DNA of 62,605 nucleotides from an uncultured Bacteroidales bacterium (lineage in GTDB: Bacteria > Bacteroidota > Bacteroidia > Bacteroidales > Muribaculaceae), in NCBI GenBank assembly GCA_945829225.1, contig CALZTY010000009.1, positions 1 to 62,605 on the forward strand. Reading direction: 5' to 3'. Position numbers and translations under genes: made by a program. Shown here in pieces: positions 2,043 to 18,214 of this stretch. Under the pieces are notes generated by a model. That model worked only from the letters and a program-made list of their open reading frames with translations, did no database searches and had not been told where the DNA came from. Every line of letters starts with the position of its first letter. Within the stretch, counting starts at the first letter, position 1.

Positions 2043-2777
2043 TTACATTGGTTTGATCACTTCCCAATATCCACCTTTGTCAGCACCTATCCGTTTAATA
2101 TATCCATCTGCAACCAAACTTTCCAAACGCCTTTTAATGGTACTGTCGTGCAGTCCCAATCGCTTGGCTAATTCTAAGCGTGTGATGCTCGGATTATCCA
2201 AAATCAAATCTAAAATTTGTTTTTTCTGGTCGTTTTTTGCGTTTTCTGGTCGGTTTTCACCTGTTTTCTGGTCGTTTTTTGCGTTTTCTGGTCGGTATCC
2301 ACCTATTTTCTGGTCGTTTTTCTTAATCATGCCTTCGTATAGGTCAAGCATGGCATTTATATCTTGCTCGTTGCCGCCGGTAGAAAGGGTTAAACCAGTC
2401 CTATCCACTCCATTATTGTTAGTTTCCTCGAGCATTATTGGAGTATGGTAAACCTTATTCCAAATCGTACTAATACCACACAAACCACTTCCGGCTCTTT
2501 CTCCAAAATCAATTAGTGAAAACATTTTCAGCATAATGCCATTGCGTGGGTCCGAAATCCCTCCGGTAATAGCCTCGGAAATAGAGATACGCACGCACCC
2601 CGGATTTGAAAACTTAAAGCCTTCCTTCGACTTCTGAATTACAATACCCTGTCTGCCATAAAAATCAGCATGAACTACTGTATTGGTAATGGCTTCGCGT
2701 AGAAGTTTGTGTATAGGTGTATCATCAACTCGTTGATTGCCCTTGAGGACAAAAGGCACTTTGAGTCCTTGTTGCAT
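2043..2777 (-). pseudogene. AlbA_2/HATPase-type transcriptional regulator, C-terminal fragment
   Basis: This 244-residue frame carries the C-terminal half of the protein begun by the fragment immediately upstream (2675-3505). It starts abruptly at LKVPFVLKGNQRVDDTP, a conserved stretch in the middle of the family, and continues through the HATPase_c_4-like region (HADFYGRQGIVI, ISDPRNGIMLKMF, GERAGSGLCGI). A repetitive hydrophilic linker and a C-terminal winged helix (LELAKRLGLHDSTIKRRLES) follow. Intact relatives have about 40 residues between FLDYQE and the LKVPF segment; here these are absent and the frame changes near 2778-2784. I infer an internal deletion with frameshift. A separately translated C-terminal protein cannot be excluded, because an ATG lies at the junction. 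Confidence 0.75.
2226..2324 (-). repeat. 42-bp tandem repeat in linker of the AlbA-family gene
   Basis: Two full 42-bp copies (2226-2267, 2268-2309) and a 15-bp partial copy encode a 14-residue unit of the form NDQKTGENRPENAK. The unit length is a multiple of three, so copy number can vary without changing frame. Such hydrophilic linkers lie between the ATPase-like and winged-helix domains. Confidence 0.85.
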
Positions 2778-3505
2778 TCTTCTTGATAGTCCAAGAAATA
2801 ATTCGGGAACTCCCGCGTGATTTCATATTCATATCCAAACATCAGTAATCCGGCTGCGGTAGGGTGATAAAGTCCATCCGCACCTATCGACATTGCTCCA
2901 ATTTTTCTCAAGAACAACTCATCATCTTCATTGTTCCACAAATGATTACTGTGACAAGACCTGAAGAAGTTTCTATATCCCTTGACAGAGTCCTTGCAAA
3001 ATACCGAGCTATCCATATTCTCTAATACCTTGGCATCTTGCGTAACAGCAGAAGCATCACGAAACATCAGTGATACTTCATCTATTGAGCAATGATAATC
3101 CCCATCATGGTTACGGCGATATGTCCCAGATTTAGGGTCCAAACCTACATACACAGGGCGTGCGCTCCTTTCTGCACGTGGAACATTAATTACTAACACC
3201 TCGTTGCCGTTGACATTCTCAACTGTTACCATTCGGTCCGTAACAATATTTGCACTGACTTTTTGGCGATTATTGACCATATTCCAGAAATCCTTTCGTA
3301 ACTTCTCCGCATCGATACCCGATTCCGGTTGAAGGGTTCCATCGCCGGTCTCTTTTACGCCAAGAATAATCACACCTCCATTAGTATTGGCAAACGCAGA
3401 ATAAGTCTCCCATAAAGAATTTGGGAAACCACCTTTAGCCGACTTCGCTTCAAGGCGACTATTCTCTCTATAGGTGTCCAGTGCTTTTATGTCGAACGTA
3501 TCCAT
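2675..3505 (-). pseudogene. AlbA_2-domain (Schlafen-like) transcriptional regulator, N-terminal fragment
   Basis: N-terminal half of an AlbA_2/HATPase_c_4 regulator of the kind annotated as divergent AAA-4 or RecG-like proteins. The opening ESRLEAKSAKGGFPNSLWET with ANTNGGVIILGVKE is the AlbA_2 nucleic-acid-binding domain (about residues 5-120). The frame follows the family to REFPNYFLDYQEE (around residue 240), then runs about 35 unrelated residues into a stop at 2675. The remainder continues in another frame (2043-2777) after a loss of roughly 40 codons. Base composition is AT-richer than rpoC, consistent with an accessory gene. A promoter and normal start are present, so truncation looks recent or the fragment is still expressed. 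Confidence 0.78.
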
Positions 3506-7881: not shown

Positions 7882-7915
7882 AAGGGAGGCATGTCGATGG
7901 AGGCATGCCTCCCTT
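7882..7915 (-). terminator. Terminator hairpin of the capsid/portal operon
   Basis: Perfect 12-bp stem (aagggaggcatg / catgcctccctt) with a 10-base loop. On the minus strand it is followed by TTATTTTG, and it lies just after the stop of the leftward portal-like gene. It could also limit rightward transcription from 7402-7854. Confidence 0.7.
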
Positions 7916-7919
7916 GATG

Positions 7920-9233
7920 TTAAGCGATTGCGGCTACCTTGGCGTTGCGGTCAGTGGTGAACGAGGCGAAGGTGTCGAGGAGGTCGGTGAGCGCAATGGC
8001 AGCATTGCGGACCTGAGCGTCGTATAGCGAGGCGCCGGTGGCGGCGGAGATGTTGCGCCCCATGAGGGCATCGCTGATGCCGGAGACGTCTTCGAAGAGT
8101 TTCATCTGCAACTCGAGGAGTCGGTAAGCGCCGGACTCGGCAGAGTTGGTAATCACTTGGCGGGGGATGTCATTCTGGTTACCGCCACGGATAGGGATGA
8201 GGCCTTCGGGTTTAGCCCATTGGCGAGCGATGTCGCTGATAGAAACGCCCTCGGGGAGTTGGCTGAGGGGGAAAAGGAGAGCGCCCTTAGCCGAAGCCGC
8301 GAGGATGGTGTCGACGAGCACGACGAGCCGGTTGATGGTCTTCTGCTGGTCGATGACATCCTCGACGAAGGAGTGGACTTCGCCGTCGGTGAGGGGATAG
8401 AATTTGACGGCAAAGGGGTGCGAGGCGTGCTTGTAAGGCGAGTTGTAGGTAGCGAGGACGGTGCCATCGGGGGCGAGCCAAGTGCAGTGCCAGCGCATAT
8501 CGACCCAACGATGCGAATATGGGTCGGAAGTCTCGATGCCACGGAGGCGCCACAACTCGATGACGCGGCAGCGCCCATTGCGAGCGGTGAAGAAGTCGAC
8601 GGCGGCAGGCGTGGAGCCGATGGCATCGTCGGGGATGCCGAAGTCGGCGTGTAGTGGGGCCATGAATAGCGCCTTGAGGGCATCGCAGCGACGCTTGGAG
8701 CCGTTGCCGAATCGGTTGAGGATTTCGCCGAGGGTCATGTCGTGGAGCATGCCGATGAAGTCGATGTCGAAGCCGCGTGGGTCGCGGAAGTCGTTGACAA
8801 AGAAGTTGTCGGGCGAGATATTGTCGACCCAGACGCCGGCGCCGGCGGGGCGCCGCTCGGAGCAAACGCGCTGGATAGCGCAGCCCGAGATTACAAACTC
8901 CTCGAGGAGACGGCAGTCGAGTTCGGCGAGATGATTGCGCGCATCGATGCTGCCGGGGTCGCCGGAGTAAGTATTGTTCTCGACGGCGGAGTTGCGATAA
9001 CGCCCGACGATGGTCTTGACGAGTTGTCGGATGAGGTTGTTGGTGAGGGGACGTCGCCCCGAGTCGATGAGGAGATGGCGTTCCTCGCAGCAACCGCCGG
9101 CGTTGTCGGCGACGATGTCGCTCCATTGGTCGCCGTAGGTGAAACGCTTGTAGCGTAGACGGCGGCAGCGCAGGGTATCGGCGGCGAGCCAAGTGTCGTA
9201 GGCAGATTTGAGAAGGTTTAAGTCTTTGTTCAT
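7920..9233 (-). CDS. Phage portal-like protein
   Basis: 437 residues with the hallmarks of a phage portal protein. Near the N-terminus there is YKRFTYGDQWSDIV (the aromatic-GDQW motif of portals). It is followed by a central ISPDNFFVNDFRDPRG segment, VEDVIDQQKTINRLVVLVD (the long helix before the stem), and near the C-terminus SDALMGRNISAATGASLYDAQ, the usual portal ending. Portals form the dodecameric DNA channel at one capsid vertex. It is at the short end for portals. It is the last gene of a four-gene operon, overlapping its upstream neighbour by 4 bases. No terminase, protease or tail gene is adjacent. The assignment is by motif recognition; a structure search would settle it. Confidence 0.72.
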   Translation of the reverse strand: MNKDLNLLKSAYDTWLAADTLRCRRLRYKRFTYGDQWSDIVADNAGGCCEERHLLIDSGRRPLTNNLIRQLVKTIVGRYRNSAVENNTYSGDPGSIDARNHLAELDCRLLEEFVISGCAIQRVCSERRPAGAGVWVDNISPDNFFVNDFRDPRGFDIDFIGMLHDMTLGEILNRFGNGSKRRCDALKALFMAPLHADFGIPDDAIGSTPAAVDFFTARNGRCRVIELWRLRGIETSDPYSHRWVDMRWHCTWLAPDGTVLATYNSPYKHASHPFAVKFYPLTDGEVHSFVEDVIDQQKTINRLVVLVDTILAASAKGALLFPLSQLPEGVSISDIARQWAKPEGLIPIRGGNQNDIPRQVITNSAESGAYRLLELQMKLFEDVSGISDALMGRNISAATGASLYDAQVRNAAIALTDLLDTFASFTTDRNAKVAAIA

Positions 9234-9769
9234 AGTAGTTTAAGCGAATTAGGGATGGTGTCGAGGAGAACTTCGTCGAGGATATAGCGGTCGTTGCCGG
9301 GGTCGGCGATGCCGTAGAGTGAGAATGCGTCGGAGAGTTGCAGGGGCGCGGCGAGGATATCGCGGTGCCCGGTGTCGACGGCGAGGGGAGCATATGCAGA
9401 AGGCGCGCCGAAGGGACCTTTGAGCAAATTAAGAGCATCTGTGGCATCTTGATAAGGGATAGGAGTAACAGGGTGGTCCCAGCGAGGAGCCTCGACTGCG
9501 ATGACGCGGCGGACATTGGCAGCGGGAACAATGCGGAGGAGATTGCGCCCGGCAGAGAGGCAGTCGGTGTAAGAGACGATGCCCACTGGAAGGAGGCGCG
9601 TGTCGGCGGAATCGAGGAGTCGGAGGTACCACGAGCGCATAGCAGTGGCGATGAGGTCGTTGACCTGCCGACCCTCGAAGACCTCGACGGAACAATCGTC
9701 ACGGATTTCGTCAAAGCCCAAACGGCGGCGCCATAGCGCGAGCATCTGTTGGTGAGATAGTTCCATCAT
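9230..9769 (-). CDS. Small protein between capsid-like and portal-like genes (adaptor-like)
   Basis: 179 residues, mostly predicted alpha/beta. Notable segments are HQQMLALWRRRLGFDEIRDD at the start, then LIATAMRSWYLRLLDSADTR and LLPVGIVS, and later NVRRVIAVEAPRWDHPVTPI. No enzyme motif or membrane segment is visible. Its fixed place between the capsid-like and portal-like genes, with a 12-base gap upstream and a 4-base overlap downstream, suggests it works with them, for example as a head-completion or adaptor protein. That role is inferred from position only. Confidence 0.6.
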   Translation of the reverse strand: MMELSHQQMLALWRRRLGFDEIRDDCSVEVFEGRQVNDLIATAMRSWYLRLLDSADTRLLPVGIVSYTDCLSAGRNLLRIVPAANVRRVIAVEAPRWDHPVTPIPYQDATDALNLLKGPFGAPSAYAPLAVDTGHRDILAAPLQLSDAFSLYGIADPGNDRYILDEVLLDTIPNSLKLL

Positions 9770-9781
9770 ATAGCATAGGGA

Positions 9782-11086
9782 TTAGATCGGTGCGTCGGTC
9801 GAAGAATCGTTGCCGGTATCGGGTGTGTCAACGGCGGTGTCGTCGAGAGAGCCGATGAGTCGGAAGTGAACATCGGGGTGACGCAGGACGATGCACGAAG
9901 CCTCGGTGAGGACGATGGCGTCGGTATTGCGGTCGCCGGCACGACGCAGGTCGATGCGCTCCTTGGAGAACGGGATGTGGCAGTACTTGGTGACATAGTC
10001 GGGGTCGAGGATGAAACCGTCGTTGTAGTGTCCACACATGTCGAAGATTTCGGAGTGAACGACGTAGAGAGTGCCGAAGTTGGAGACAATCTCGCGGAAA
10101 CGAATACCCCAACGGGTGAGTGATTGGTCGCCGAGGACGGCTCGACTGAATTGCAACTTATTGAGGGCGAGAATCAGTCCGGTGCCACCCATGAGGATGC
10201 GCTTCTTGGAGCCATTGTTGCCGGTGAAAACGCGGGCGCAGAGGTCGAGGAGCGAGTTCTCGTTGAGCGAGTTGATGTTGACGTCGATGCTCTGCTTGGT
10301 TTGATTCCAGATGCCGCCGGTGAGGTAAACATGCTCGTTGCCCGAGAGCGAAGTGATGCGAGCGCGAGTGCCGAAGAGGAAGTTCTTCTCCATGCCGAGA
10401 CGCATATCGATGATAGCGGCTTCCTCCTGGTCGGAGAAGTTCCAGTCGACTTCCTTGCCGGCAATCTTTTGGAGAGTGGATTGCTCGACTTGGACCTTGA
10501 AAATCTGGCAGTTGTTGCTGCGCTTGTGAGGCAAAGCCTGGTATTGCCCGGTCTGTACGTCAAGTTCGGTAGCGGCACGCCCCATGCGGACAATCTTGGT
10601 ACCCTTGTCCATTTGAGGCAGCGACAGAGAGTCGCCGGTAGGCTCGTTGAGGACATAGACGGTGAGGATATCTCCCGAGATATAGGCGACGTAGGCAGTG
10701 AGGGGAGTACCGTCGACGAGCACGTCGGGGAGCATGATGGTGTCGGTAGGAGCGAAGATGCGGCTGTTGGTCACTTCAAGTTCGATTGTAAAGTTGCCGA
10801 TGTCGCTGCGCGTGATGGTGCCCGGGAGGCGCTTCCTGTCGAGGGTATCGCAAGCCTCGCGAGCATCGACCGAGTAGTATTCGACGGTCATAGACGAGCA
10901 GGAGCGAGAGCCGAGGCATCGCGAAATTTGGTCGACGGGAGTCGAGGTTGGGCGCACACGGACGATGCGGTCGTCGATAGCGTTGCGCAACAGAGAGGGT
11001 ACAATTTCCTCAGTAACTTTGGTGGTGAGAGGAGCGCCGGCTACATGAGTGCCGCCGGCGGTTCCGGGTACAGTGTTGGTTGACAT
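9782..11086 (-). CDS. Major-capsid-like protein (SU10/DUF5309 type)
   Basis: 434 residues resembling SU10-type (formerly DUF5309) capsid proteins of the HK97 fold. Signals are LTTKVTEEIVPSLLRNAIDD at the N-terminus, and the mid-protein segment SDQEEAAIIDMRLGMEKNFL, where family members have the conserved KR..E..K..E.AFLFG-type helix. LFGTRARITS and GGIWNQ follow, then the strand pattern GTLYVVHSEIFD before DPDYV..Y. The C-terminus is acidic and probably disordered. There is no adjacent protease or scaffold gene of usual size. First large gene of the operon; the 60-residue acidic gene precedes it by 115 bases. A shell-forming protein is the best guess; assembly into particles is untested. Confidence 0.68.
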   Translation of the reverse strand: MSTNTVPGTAGGTHVAGAPLTTKVTEEIVPSLLRNAIDDRIVRVRPTSTPVDQISRCLGSRSCSSMTVEYYSVDAREACDTLDRKRLPGTITRSDIGNFTIELEVTNSRIFAPTDTIMLPDVLVDGTPLTAYVAYISGDILTVYVLNEPTGDSLSLPQMDKGTKIVRMGRAATELDVQTGQYQALPHKRSNNCQIFKVQVEQSTLQKIAGKEVDWNFSDQEEAAIIDMRLGMEKNFLFGTRARITSLSGNEHVYLTGGIWNQTKQSIDVNINSLNENSLLDLCARVFTGNNGSKKRILMGGTGLILALNKLQFSRAVLGDQSLTRWGIRFREIVSNFGTLYVVHSEIFDMCGHYNDGFILDPDYVTKYCHIPFSKERIDLRRAGDRNTDAIVLTEASCIVLRHPDVHFRLIGSLDDTAVDTPDTGNDSSTDAPI

Positions 11087-11201
11087 AATAAAATTAGATT
11101 TTGTAAAGGTTTGTAAATGAGTTAATTAATAAATGTGTGTTAAGATTAAGATAAATGAATAAAGGATGAGAAAAAATTAAGATAAAGGGTTAATAAATCG
11201 C

Positions 11202-11384
11202 TTAGTCCCAGATGGAGAGGTCGAGAAACGAGAAGGGAAAGTCGTCATCGTCATCATCGTCGGCGGGGACGTCGGGAGCGGAGTCGTCGGTAGGGCAGAA
11301 GAGCGCCTGGTCCGACGTGGTAGAGGATTGGAGGGTCGAGTCGTTGACGGCATCGTCAAGGGGTTGGTTGTTGATGTTTTCCAT
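11202..11384 (-). CDS. Small acidic protein heading the capsid/portal operon
   Basis: 60 residues, very acidic, with a run of seven Asp followed by a short hydrophobic end FPFSFLDLSIWD. It starts about 50 bases downstream of the operon promoter and has the operon's only other ATG-led frame in this stretch; a competing frame (11177-11359) is low-complexity and looks like a shadow. A disordered acidic body with a hydrophobic C-terminal tag is what one expects of a scaffold or a shell-cargo tag, but this is inference. Composition supports coding only moderately. Confidence 0.55.
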   Translation of the reverse strand: MENINNQPLDDAVNDSTLQSSTTSDQALFCPTDDSAPDVPADDDDDDDFPFSFLDLSIWD

Positions 11385-11440
11385 AAGATAAAATAAGGTT
11401 TAAAAGATTAATAAAAAAGGTTTGTTTCAGAATGACGATG

Positions 11441-11472
11441 CAAAGTTACAACACAAATTGCAATTATGCAAA
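11441..11472 (-). promoter_or_regulatory. Promoter of the capsid/portal operon
   Basis: On the minus strand: TTTG (11469-11472), exactly 20 bases, TAACTTTG (11441-11448). This is a full match to the Bacteroidetes housekeeping promoter and lies about 57 bases before the ATG at 11384. Confidence 0.85.
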
Positions 11473-11564
11473 TATTTTAGCAACTTTTTTTGAAAAAATT
11501 TTTTTAGGCGGTGTTGTTTATGGTTTATTGTTTATTGTTTAGGGTTGAGGGATTTTGTGGTTTG

Positions 11565-11587
11565 CAACCCTTCCAGGGTTGTTTTTT
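11565..11587 (+). terminator. Terminator-like hairpin in the palindrome cluster
   Basis: Stem caaccct / agggttg, loop tcc, then TTTTTT. It has the form of an intrinsic terminator on the plus strand but no plus-strand gene ends nearby; probably a repeat element. Confidence 0.45.
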
Positions 11588-11711
11588 CGTTTTGTTGGGA
11601 GCCCCGGGGAGGGCTGCGCCCACCCCGGGGTTAGTGATGTTGAGACCCTTCCAGGGTCTTATCAGTGGTTTGAGCAACCCGCGCTGCGGGTTCTTGCGGC
11701 ATCGGCTGGTC

Positions 11712-14764: not shown

Positions 14765-17700
14765 ATGAATTTTAAAGAAATACTTGGCAAGAAAATATTG
14801 TTGCTTGACGGCTCCATGGGCGTCGAACTGCGCAAACTTGCTCCCGATGAGAGCGCGGTGCGCGGGCGACGCTTCATGACCCATAGCCGATCGTTAGTGT
14901 CAAATCTGGATATACTCAATCTGTCGCGCCCCGAGGTGGTGGAGCAAGTGCACGATGCCTATCTGGAGGCAGGCGCAGATATAATAGAGACTAATACCTT
15001 CAATTCCAATGCCTTGTCACAGCGAGAATACGCCACCGAGACGTTGGTGCGATCGCTGAATCTCGCCGGCGCACGCATCGCGGTAGGGCGAGCGAGGCAT
15101 TATACGAGCCTCACACCCGAGCGACGGCGCTATGTAGCAGGGTCGATGGGACCGACAGCGATGTCGGCATCGTTGCCCTCAGACGCATCCTCGCCGTGGC
15201 TGAGGTCGATAGATTTTGACACTCTTGCCGAGGCGTATACCGAGCAGGCATCAGCCCTCATTGAGGGTGAGGTGGATATACTCCTGGTAGAGACCGCGTT
15301 TGACTTGCTCAATGCCCGAGCCGCCCTGGAGGGTGCTCAGCGGGCTATGGAGCAAGCCGGCAAGCACCTGCCGGTGATAGTGTCGATGACCGTCTCGGAT
15401 AATTCGGGCAGAATCCTCTCGGGGCACACTCCCGAGGCGTTTTTGTCGGCGATAGCGCCATATGAGCCTGCTGCTGTGGGTTTTAACTGCTCGGCGGGGC
15501 CCGATAGCCTCGGTGGCGCGTTGCGACGCCTCGCTGCCGTGTCGCCGTTTCCTATCATCTTTTATCCCAATGCCGGGCTGCCCGACCGCGCCGGCAATTA
15601 CTCGCTCGACCCGGCGAAATTTGTCGCCGCTCTCAAGCCCCTATTGGATGATGGACTAATCAACATCGTTGGAGGGTGCTGTGGTACTACAGCGCAGCAT
15701 ATCAAGCAGTTAGATGAATATCTGTCGCAAGTCGAGCTTCGCAAAGCAGACGCCGGCAAGCCGACGGCATGGCTCTCGGGGCTGGATGCGTTTGACGATA
15801 CGCGAGGCTTCATCAACGTGGGCGAACGATGCAACGTAGCCGGGAGCCGCAAATTTTTGCGCTTGGTCAAGGAAGGCGACACCGCCGGCATCCTCGAGAT
15901 AGCGCGCAAGCAGGTGGCTGCCGGGGCGATGATGCTCGATATAAATATGGACGACCCCATGCTCGATGCGCCCCACGAGATGGAGCGCTTTCTGCGTCTC
16001 ATAGGTTCAGACCCCGAGACGGCATCCGTGCCATGGATGATCGACTCGTCGAACTTCGACGTCGTTGAGACGGCGCTGAAGAATATGGCAGGCAAGGGCG
16101 TTGTCAACTCGATATCTCTCAAACATGGCGAGGAGGATTTTGTAGCAAAGGCTTCGCTGATAAGGCGTTATGGCGCTGCAGTGGTGGTGATGCTCTTTGA
16201 CGAGCAAGGTCAAGCGGCTGATTACGAGCGCAAGATAGAGGTGGTGCAGCGAGCGGTGAAGATACTGACCGAGCGCTGTGGCTACAACAGGCGCGATATC
16301 ATCATTGATGCGAATATCCTGACCATAGCCACGGGTATGCCCGAGCACGACCGCTATGCTCTCGACTTCCTGAGGGCGGTGGAGTGGATACGCGACAACC
16401 TGCCCGGCGTGAAGACCTCGGGCGGATTGAGCAACCTGTCCTTTGCCTTCCGCGGCAACAATTATTTGCGCCAGGCGATGCATGCCGTGTTCCTCTACCA
16501 CGCTGTCAAGGCGGGCTTGAGCATGGCAATTATGGACCCCGGGGCAAAGGTGACCTATGCCGATATAGAGCCGCGACTGCTCGAGCGCCTCGAGGACGTA
16601 ATCTTGTGTCGCCGCGCCGATGCAGCCGCGCGACTGATCGAGATAGCCTCGGAGTATTCAGCCAAGGAAGTGACGGCCGAGGTGCCGCAAGCCGCCTATG
16701 AGCCCGATGTGCTCAAGCGATTGTCGGCGGCATTGATATCAGGCGACTCCGTTGCCCTGCAACGCGATATAGATGAAGCCGTGGGTGTGCTGGGAAGCGC
16801 GACCGCCGTGGTCGAGCAGCCGCTGATGTCGGCGATGGAGGAGGTCGGACGCCGATTTGAAGCCGGCAAGATGTTCCTGCCACAGGTGGTCAAGAGCGCC
16901 GGAGCCATGCATGCGGCGGTTGAGTATCTGCGCCCGCTGCTCGAGGAGGGCAAGGCGAGCGGTGCTACCGCCGGCACATTCTTGATTGCCACGGTGCGCG
17001 GCGATGTGCACGATATCGGCAAAAATATCGCTGCTGTGGTGCTCAGATGCAACAACTTCGAGGTCGTGGACCTCGGGGTGCAAGTCGAGGCGGAGAAGAT
17101 TGTGGAGGCGGCACTGAAGTTGCGCCCCGACTTCATAGGGCTCAGCGGACTGATTACCCCCTCGCTCGAGGAGATGGCAGTCGTGGCGCGCGCACTCAGG
17201 CGCTCCGGTATCGGGGTGCCGCTCTTTGTCGGCGGTGCCGCCACGAGCGAATTGCACACCGCGCTGCGCATCGCTCCCGAATATGACGGCGTGGTGGTGC
17301 GAGTCAAGGATGCCGCCGCCAATCCGGTGCTCGCCATGCGTCTGATGCAAGATGCCGCGGGCGAGGAGCAGCGGATACGCGAGCGCCAGCGTCAACTCGT
17401 TGATGACTATAATAAGAAGGTAGAAGATGCTGATAACCAACGAGATGGGGCTGAAAGGGTGGATTTGCTCTACGACGAAGAGCAAATCGTGAAGCCCTCA
17501 TTCTTAGGCGTTAAGACCCTGCCGGAGGTGTCAATTGCCACAGTGCGTCCGTATATCAACTACACATTCTTTTATAAGTGCTGGCAGGTGGCGCCCGGCT
17601 CGCCGGAGGCTGAGAAGATGCGCCTGGATGCTGAGGAGTTGCTCGACTCGTTTGAGCGCCAAGGGGCTACGATGTGTGCTCAAGTTGCTTTCCATGAGGC

Positions 17701-18214
17701 TTTTGCTGATGGCGATGCCATCGTTGTCGGTGATGTGACCGTGCCTACACCGCGCCAAAAACGAGGTAAAGCCCTCAGCGACTACATAGCGCCACAAGGC
17801 GACTATATAGGTTGCTTCCTCGTCACGGTCGGCGAGCGGATACGCAAGAGTATCAGTGAGGCAGCCGACTCCTATTCGCATCTGCTGAGGCAGTCGATAG
17901 CCGATAGGCTTGCCGAGGCAACGTCGGAGTGGCTACACCGACAGGTGAGGGTGAATTTGTGGGGCTACAGTCCCGATGAACCCCTTGATTATGAGGCTAT
18001 TCGCCGAGGAAGTTACCGAGGCATTCGTCCGGCGGTGGGATATCCGTCGCTGCCCGATCAGCGGCTGATGCACACCCTGCTCAAGTTGCTCGCTCCCGAC
18101 GAGGTCAAGGTGCAAGCGACGGTCAATGGAGCGCTCGAGCCGGCATCGAGTGTCGCCGGCTTCTATTTCGCCTCTCCTCATGCCCGCTACTTCACCGTTA
18201 ACGCTGATTTTTAA
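14765..18214 (+). CDS. metH: Cobalamin-dependent methionine synthase
   Basis: 1149 residues, near full length for MetH. Domain order: homocysteine-binding domain with the zinc cysteines in GFNCSAGP and VGGCCGTT (residues 1 to about 315); pterin-binding domain (FINVGERCNVAGSRKF onward, to about 610); B12 cap and B12-binding domain with DVHDIGKN (His749 is the cobalt ligand); and a C-terminal AdoMet activation domain ending with RPAVGYPSLPD. It transfers the methyl group of methyl-THF to homocysteine. No cobalamin riboswitch is visible upstream of the operon. Final gene of metY-metF-metH. Confidence 0.97.
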   Translation: MNFKEILGKKILLLDGSMGVELRKLAPDESAVRGRRFMTHSRSLVSNLDILNLSRPEVVEQVHDAYLEAGADIIETNTFNSNALSQREYATETLVRSLNLAGARIAVGRARHYTSLTPERRRYVAGSMGPTAMSASLPSDASSPWLRSIDFDTLAEAYTEQASALIEGEVDILLVETAFDLLNARAALEGAQRAMEQAGKHLPVIVSMTVSDNSGRILSGHTPEAFLSAIAPYEPAAVGFNCSAGPDSLGGALRRLAAVSPFPIIFYPNAGLPDRAGNYSLDPAKFVAALKPLLDDGLINIVGGCCGTTAQHIKQLDEYLSQVELRKADAGKPTAWLSGLDAFDDTRGFINVGERCNVAGSRKFLRLVKEGDTAGILEIARKQVAAGAMMLDINMDDPMLDAPHEMERFLRLIGSDPETASVPWMIDSSNFDVVETALKNMAGKGVVNSISLKHGEEDFVAKASLIRRYGAAVVVMLFDEQGQAADYERKIEVVQRAVKILTERCGYNRRDIIIDANILTIATGMPEHDRYALDFLRAVEWIRDNLPGVKTSGGLSNLSFAFRGNNYLRQAMHAVFLYHAVKAGLSMAIMDPGAKVTYADIEPRLLERLEDVILCRRADAAARLIEIASEYSAKEVTAEVPQAAYEPDVLKRLSAALISGDSVALQRDIDEAVGVLGSATAVVEQPLMSAMEEVGRRFEAGKMFLPQVVKSAGAMHAAVEYLRPLLEEGKASGATAGTFLIATVRGDVHDIGKNIAAVVLRCNNFEVVDLGVQVEAEKIVEAALKLRPDFIGLSGLITPSLEEMAVVARALRRSGIGVPLFVGGAATSELHTALRIAPEYDGVVVRVKDAAANPVLAMRLMQDAAGEEQRIRERQRQLVDDYNKKVEDADNQRDGAERVDLLYDEEQIVKPSFLGVKTLPEVSIATVRPYINYTFFYKCWQVAPGSPEAEKMRLDAEELLDSFERQGATMCAQVAFHEAFADGDAIVVGDVTVPTPRQKRGKALSDYIAPQGDYIGCFLVTVGERIRKSISEAADSYSHLLRQSIADRLAEATSEWLHRQVRVNLWGYSPDEPLDYEAIRRGSYRGIRPAVGYPSLPDQRLMHTLLKLLAPDEVKVQATVNGALEPASSVAGFYFASPHARYFTVNADF

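Follow-up and report, generated by a model that had tools for sequence, protein, structure and literature searches.

The window analysed here, a stretch of 62,605 nucleotides from an uncultured Bacteroidales bacterium of the family Muribaculaceae (assembly GCA_945829225.1, contig CALZTY010000009.1), contains an operon of four intact leftward genes encoding a 60-residue acidic protein, a capsid protein, a 179-residue protein and a portal protein. This operon is probably the head module of a domesticated, dispersed, vertically inherited and short-tailed particle of gene transfer agent (GTA) type, the terminase and putative tail hub of which are encoded on another contig of the same genome. The successive genes are separated by 115 bp and 12 bp and then overlap by 4 bp. 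Coordinates and a motif scan agreed with an initial annotation of this DNA, which had described four tightly spaced intact genes with a TTTG-N20 promoter and one terminator hairpin (Table 1). The host-like composition that it had noted was recovered as well, since the operon genes have a GC content of 57-61%, and of 66-78% at third codon positions (GC3), near the values of rpoC and of the open reading frame (ORF) 14765 (58%; 68-74%).

Head, packaging and tail components

The capsid protein matches the Pfam family SU10_MCP (E 6.3e-46) and phrog_26635 (7.8e-77), and its profile matches PDB entry 9in6, the major capsid of VP1 (5.9e-14). In the same way, the portal protein matches Pfam P22_portal (3.3e-14) and phrog_156, annotated as 'portal protein' (6.6e-39), and its profile matches the portal of PDB entry 8jov (6.6e-7). 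The capsid and portal identities first proposed are therefore upheld by the SU10_MCP and P22_portal matches, and the folds are phage folds rather than unrelated ones. The acidic protein ends with an SIWD motif; a protein in this position upstream of the capsid gene, with a C-terminal S-[IV]-W-[DE]-like motif, was found in 22 of 62 loci, window included, by means of a strict pattern that the other 40 did not match. It is a probable shortened scaffold or capsid-binding protein. The promoter is presumably of the ordinary Bacteroidales type, because the loose consensus TTTG-N18..22-TAnnTTTG occurs eight times on both strands across the window.

Profiles made from IMG/VR contigs for a terminase and for a protein of about 690 aa were searched in the genome of the window (G000) and found a second operon on contig C2 (about 89.8-93.9 kb). 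It consists of two genes, encoding a large terminase of 582 aa and a protein of 795 aa, and has its own promoter, which is similar to that of the head operon (76% over 42 bp). Three short IMG/VR contigs, one of which also encodes the ~690-aa protein, have the capsid-adaptor-portal order next to the terminase, the latter incomplete in L031. Terminase residues K112, E218, D394, E451, D550 and D551 are kept in 19 of 19 aligned rows; we take K112 to belong to a lambda-like Walker A motif, E218 to Walker B and the other four to the nuclease. Packaging of DNA by the particle is supported at the level of sequence. In other families, relatives of the 795-aa protein match phrog_32516 (1e-70 or better) as well as phrog_3287 (virion structural) and the tail-appendage family phrog_8094. 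For a Muribaculaceae member, a partial model (predicted local distance difference test score, pLDDT, 60.5) shows a beta-propeller that has P22 gp10 as its best structural match, tied with other propellers. Modelling thus suggests that the 795-aa protein is tail-hub-like, with a P22-gp10-like beta-propeller.

None of the ten ORFs neighbouring the head operon, scanned over the 7.9 kb to its left up to the window end and over some 10 kb to its right with ORF 14765-18214 set aside, matched phage structural, lysis or integrase families (PHROGs, E<=0.001; also Pfam). The initial annotation had reported that no terminase, tail, lysis or integrase gene lies nearby and had called the operon stand-alone. 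The first statement is right for the scanned neighbours and wrong at the scale of the genome, where terminase and tail hub are found on contig C2; the second had to be abandoned, as these genomes conserve the terminase and the tail-hub-like protein at other sites.

Table 1. Features of the head operon in the window and of two further protein types in other loci
Feature	Sequence	Position	Strand	Remark
Promoter TTTG-N20-TAACTTTG of the head operon	window	11441..11472	-	starts at 11472
Acidic protein, 60 aa, pI 4.05	window	11202..11384	-	probable shortened scaffold/capsid-binding protein
SU10-type (HK97-fold) major capsid protein, 434 aa	window	9782..11086	-	Pfam, PHROG and PDB profile matches
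Head-to-tail adaptor, 179 aa	window	9230..9769	-	tail-tubular-A / crAss ring-protein type
P22-type portal, 437 aa	window	7920..9233	-	Pfam, PHROG and PDB profile matches
Intrinsic terminator hairpin	window	7884..7913	-	10-bp GC-rich stem, then T-rich stretch
Copy of dispersed ~108-bp intergenic repeat	window	11555..11662	-	upstream of the head operon
Helix-turn-helix (HTH)-like protein, ~135 aa	L031	5486-5887		
Helix-turn-helix (HTH)-like protein, ~135 aa	L041	10866-11282		
Helix-turn-helix (HTH)-like protein, ~135 aa	L042	10791-11192		
Helix-turn-helix (HTH)-like protein, ~135 aa	L053	11033-11467		
Rhomboid-type protease	L055	13055-13522	-	
Rhomboid-type protease	L056	12942-13460	-	

The ~108-bp repeat is present in 10 near-full copies in the genome, two of which lie upstream of the two particle operons, and the copy in the window finds its best match in the one upstream of the tail/terminase operon. 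The repeat is not specific to the particle operons, since the other eight copies sit in unrelated contexts; besides the window, copies were found on contigs C2, C5, C16, C22, C28, C48, C49 and C64. Elsewhere in the window, ORF 14765-18214 is metH-like by eye, and two overlapping ORFs of the minus strand (2043-2777 and 2675-3505) match the two halves of phrog_12156, with a SLFN_AlbA Pfam match in the first part of the pair. The arrangement suggests that a frameshift or an assembly error has divided a single gene at 2043-3505.

Distribution, genome context and descent

The portal gene was found in 358 of 397 Muribaculaceae genomes and the terminase in 357 of the 397 (E<=1e-60) with a profile in which 18 of 19 rows came from Muribaculaceae genomes. 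Both genes are for the most part single-copy, intact, scattered and subject to purifying selection. A terminase profile restricted to phage and IMG/VR rows matched 28 of 30 genomes of the family. Seven of eight portal-negative Muribaculaceae genomes tested carry the terminase, so the absence of the portal partly reflects missed detection or incomplete assembly. The capsid was observed in 43 of 48 genomes of mixed choice (four weak matches in genus g30, one partial in G262), its profile drawing 11 of 14 rows from Muribaculaceae genomes. Among 80 named loci, with many contigs being short, capsid and adaptor genes were present in 64 and 70, respectively. For instance, Paramuribaculum intestinale DSM 100749 contains an intact capsid-adaptor-portal locus.

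At the level of the order, a sample of 295 Bacteroidales genomes yielded portal genes in 27: five Muribaculaceae, 19 members of six other families (f18, f24, f54, f61, f80 and f99), and G411, G660 and G563 (partial). The six families have scattered single-copy portal, capsid and terminase genes, and the capsid was found in 10 of 10 and the terminase in 15 of 15 of their portal-positive genomes tested. Of the 13 loci fetched, 9 include a tail-hub gene in the stretch covered, and these represent five of the six families (not f18). Finally, two ejection-type proteins, c49 and c7, were found in all seven genomes searched in these families, two of which had supplied profile rows; c49 is ejection-protein-like, its match to P22_gp7 (E 0.25) not being significant.

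In the loci examined (three sets of 20, 20 and 15), the particle genes lie mostly among unrelated cellular genes, and two of the last 15, in G411 and G660, look like prophages. The genes are thus not confined elsewhere to complete prophages. Head operon and tail hub/terminase operon reside on different contigs in the genome of the window (C9 and C2), and scattered copies were also found in G130, where distances of 100-235 kb lie between portal, capsid and terminase, in G616, and in G644, where ~280 kb separate portal and terminase. The two modules are close together in some genomes, such as G003 and G020, and likewise in IMG/VR contig L032. Among 13 other-family loci, five that belong to three families have the portal/tail-hub pair adjoining the SUF operon, a conserved cellular address; the SUF genes themselves were confirmed at three of these sites.

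Ratios of nonsynonymous to synonymous substitution rates (dN/dS, NG86) were 0.035-0.16 for the portal, 0.02-0.13 for the capsid and 0.085-0.26 for the adaptor in the 14 closest pairs listed per gene (12 for the adaptor), after exclusion of pairs that were identical or had saturated dS and of the near-identical L032/L033 portal pair (0.000). With values of at most 0.16 for capsid and portal in these closest pairs, and with portal and terminase each in about nine of ten genomes, the earlier proposal of a domesticated and selectively kept gene set gained ground.

In maximum-likelihood trees, the number of host-group changes was 9 for the portal (least possible 9), 7 for the capsid (7), 8 for the terminase (7) and 9 for rpoC (8), the remaining Muribaculaceae members being placed in a catch-all group, and none of 200 shuffles gave as few changes in any tree. 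Family f54 is non-monophyletic in the rpoC, portal and capsid trees; the rpoC tree also splits g8, and the terminase tree splits g1. Within Muribaculaceae, partial correlations of distances with rpoC fixed were 0.49 for portal-capsid, 0.40 for portal-terminase and 0.58 for capsid-terminase, and 2, 1 and 0 of 2000 permutations, respectively, reached these values. The distances of the three genes co-vary beyond rpoC, as expected for parts of one particle.

Related genes are found in phages. Capsid and portal proteins of the Bacteroides phages BF1-TP2, BKO1-TP3 and BS-TP4 (64-68 kb) are 36% and 32-34% identical to those of the window, and the BF1-TP2 and BKO1-TP3 genomes examined also contain terminase and adaptor homologues. 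In addition, several particle homologues lie close together in IMG/VR contigs L406, L408 and L417 (62-64 kb) and L407 and L422 (shorter), and the stretch of L408 that was examined holds terminase, capsid, adaptor, tail hub, portal and c49. Homology points to a short-tailed phage of this BF1-TP2/IMG/VR group as the most likely ancestor of the cellular gene set, which would have been taken over before the listed Bacteroidales families diverged and scattered afterwards. Compared with the cellular loci, the genes of the Bacteroides and IMG/VR phages are clustered, their portal has a longer C-terminus and their capsid an N-terminal hydrophobic segment, and they contain a rhomboid-like protease gene and very large ORFs.

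The rhomboid-type protease is annotated between terminase and capsid in BF1-TP2-like phages and may be an unusual prohead protease. In L032, the order is tail hub, terminase, acidic protein, capsid, adaptor, portal and a small HTH-like protein. The short contigs L031, L032 and L033 may be pieces of cellular genomes in which the ancestral order is retained, because their portals lack the C-terminus as in Muribaculaceae and because L285, a locus from a metagenome-assembled genome, encodes an 83% identical capsid. L034, whose portal is shortened in the same way, may be cellular too. The ~135-aa HTH-like protein, which has phage homologues, is located 3' of the portal in some genomes and is a candidate small terminase or regulator.

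Proposed function of the dispersed particle

The identities of the parts, their intact catalytic residues, dispersal, conservation, vertical descent and co-evolution are established by computation. Together, scaffold, capsid, portal, terminase, adaptor and hub appear to form a near-complete minimal DNA-packing head with its gate. For assembly, packaged content, release and delivery, we infer the following course. The head operon would supply the scaffold-like protein, capsid, adaptor and portal, and the second operon the terminase and hub. The capsid would assemble on the portal, where the terminase would dock and pack double-stranded DNA by ATP hydrolysis and headful cutting, while adaptor and hub would close the exit and later open it. 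Such a particle could hardly carry its own genome, given that its genes are spread over several loci, with neither integrase nor replication genes observed next to the window operon. The packaged content would therefore most likely be random host DNA, which would leave the cell through lysis and reach sister cells. As the particle would hardly be self-propagating, a benefit to the host is the simplest reason for its conservation, and gene transfer would be the best-known benefit of this kind. Among the options offered by the initial annotation, a gene-transfer particle is now the best supported, while a shell-only compartment and a prophage remnant have lost credit. A broader proposal, to which we give slightly better than even chances, is that an ancient GTA, P22-like, short-tailed and dispersed over the chromosome, has been passed down in Muribaculaceae and in six or more further Bacteroidales families since before their split and moves random host DNA between gut bacteria.

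Several points weigh against a gene-transfer particle. No terminase was found at the cut-off in 40 of the 397 Muribaculaceae genomes, and the nearly complete genomes G052 (C11) and G104 (C7) have capsid and portal without detectable terminase, the portal frame being shortened in G052. Ongoing loss is possible in these two, and genomes without detected terminase, these and others, may in general be losses. Genus g30 (e.g. L050-L052) has a diverged portal, weak capsid matches only and no tail-hub match; its terminase scores best with the phage-based profile in three of four genomes tested, and it perhaps contains a replaced or separate system. Two Muribaculaceae-type tail hubs that were scanned had no PHROG or Pfam match beyond chance, and c49 and c7 were each matched in 3 of 24 Muribaculaceae only, weakly or in a prophage-like form. 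The Muribaculaceae portal is also devoid of 92-143 C-terminal residues and of a ~58-residue internal segment found in the six other families. In parallel, the N-terminal hydrophobic capsid extension, present in L046 and three IMG/VR rows, is missing in 10 of 11 chromosomal Muribaculaceae capsids aligned, including that of the window. A shorter portal, a trimmed capsid and mostly undetected c49 and c7 give the Muribaculaceae version a reduced appearance. Genes for lysis, regulation, a small terminase or a tail fibre were not identified, no genome-wide search having been made. Within Muribaculaceae alone, portal and rpoC distances are not significantly correlated (r 0.12, 442 of 2000 permutations). 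Finally, a lower carbon content, a bias reported for known GTAs, was observed in the portal and terminase of Muribaculaceae and not in those of other families, and it is confounded by GC.

The reduced Muribaculaceae version could also be a particle that packs DNA without transferring genes, such as a PBSX-like killer, decoy or stress particle. Its shortened portal and mostly undetected ejection-type proteins would suit this role, no receptor-binding tail fibre was identified (again with no genome-wide search), and PBSX is described as packing host DNA without transferring it (PMC7667829). On the contrary, the particle retains adaptor and tail hub, and ejection-type proteins persist in the other families, as expected of a particle that opens into a recipient; we regard this alternative as unlikely. 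The genes might otherwise be leftovers of one integrated phage, selectively retained or decaying, as all identified parts are phage-homologous, G052 and G104 lack a detectable terminase, the portal frame of G052 is shortened, and G411, G660 and probably G054 (C15) contain related genes in copies that resemble ordinary prophages. Such a remnant is highly improbable in view of mostly intact genes in about nine of ten of the 397 Muribaculaceae genomes and in six more families, of dN/dS well under 1, of scattered genes with trees congruent with host groups, and of scanned neighbours of the window operon that include no integrase gene. An encapsulin-like compartment unrelated to DNA, made of capsid alone or of capsid plus channel, would agree with a four-gene operon standing alone in the window and with the few genomes that have capsid and portal without detectable terminase. 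It is just as hard to credit, since the terminase is about as widespread as the portal, its catalytic residues are invariant, and its distances co-vary with those of the capsid beyond rpoC. The least credible idea is that the scattered head genes serve a co-resident phage or mobile element as a satellite or multi-site helper, for although homologous phages of Bacteroides and of unstated hosts exist, the genes co-diversify with the host and are mostly single copies, and the neighbours of the window operon that were scanned include no mobile-element genes.

If the gene-transfer particle is real, a major gut bacterial family encodes its own DNA-packaging particle, maintained by vertical inheritance, and the mammalian gut has a standing though hidden route of gene exchange beside conjugation. 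The particle would also represent a GTA lineage of independent origin, in a phylum for which the literature searched describes none; these searches found no such dispersed GTA-like system in Bacteroidota. Prophage finders would tend to miss the particle, as each locus resembles a few stray phage genes.

Comparison with known systems

GTAs are viriforms and are defined by six features (PMC9662315). Three of these are seen here by computation, i.e. proteins derived from tailed phages, as recognized by sequence similarity, a route named in the definition (PMC9662315), full endogenisation, often across several loci, and vertical inheritance with co-diversification with the host, with the caveat of portal and rpoC inside Muribaculaceae. 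The particle is called GTA-like because the other three features, namely encapsidation of mostly random host DNA, a genome that cannot be packaged whole and delivery of DNA to other cells, need experiments. The terminase residues intact in 19 of 19 rows bear on the first of these. The loci lie up to hundreds of kb apart, for example in G130 and G644, which bears on the feature of a genome that is not fully packageable. In common with RcGTA, BaGTA and BhGTA/VSH-1, the particle would have phage-derived head and packaging genes that are endogenised, split over loci and vertically inherited and, as in GTAs, the surroundings of the window operon showed neither integrase nor replication genes.

A prophage is a contiguous genome that sits at an attachment site, includes integrase and replication genes and is patchy among strains. 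Here, no such genes were found among the scanned neighbours, the parts are split over contigs and about nine of ten Muribaculaceae genomes are positive. Encapsulins, understood as shell proteins with a dedicated cargo enzyme and devoid of portal or terminase, differ as well, since the capsid is conserved here along with portal, terminase and tail hub. The portal, adaptor and gp10-like propeller hub rather recall the short-tail machinery of P22, SU10 and crAss001, from which the particle differs by very low sequence identity and by scattered cellular genes in place of a virus genome.

PBSX of Bacillus subtilis, unlike the loci described here, is one contiguous element. It resembles the proposed particle in being a defective phage particle that packs random host DNA, and differs in that this DNA is not transferred between cells (PMC7667829). 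The same report describes 46 contigs with generalised-transduction- or GTA-type packaging in a mouse-gut virus fraction, their hosts being unstated there, and assigns 83 of 186 mobilised contigs to Bacteroidetes, compared with 805 of 2143 of all contigs, with no enrichment reported; the phylum shares of mobilised and of all contigs are similar with few exceptions, Bacteroidetes not being among them (PMC7667829). These data are compatible with a GTA-like particle, yet they do not single out Muribaculaceae. If the particle is real, it could help to explain the unassigned 'generalised transduction or GTA' packaging patterns that this report describes in the mouse gut (PMC7667829).
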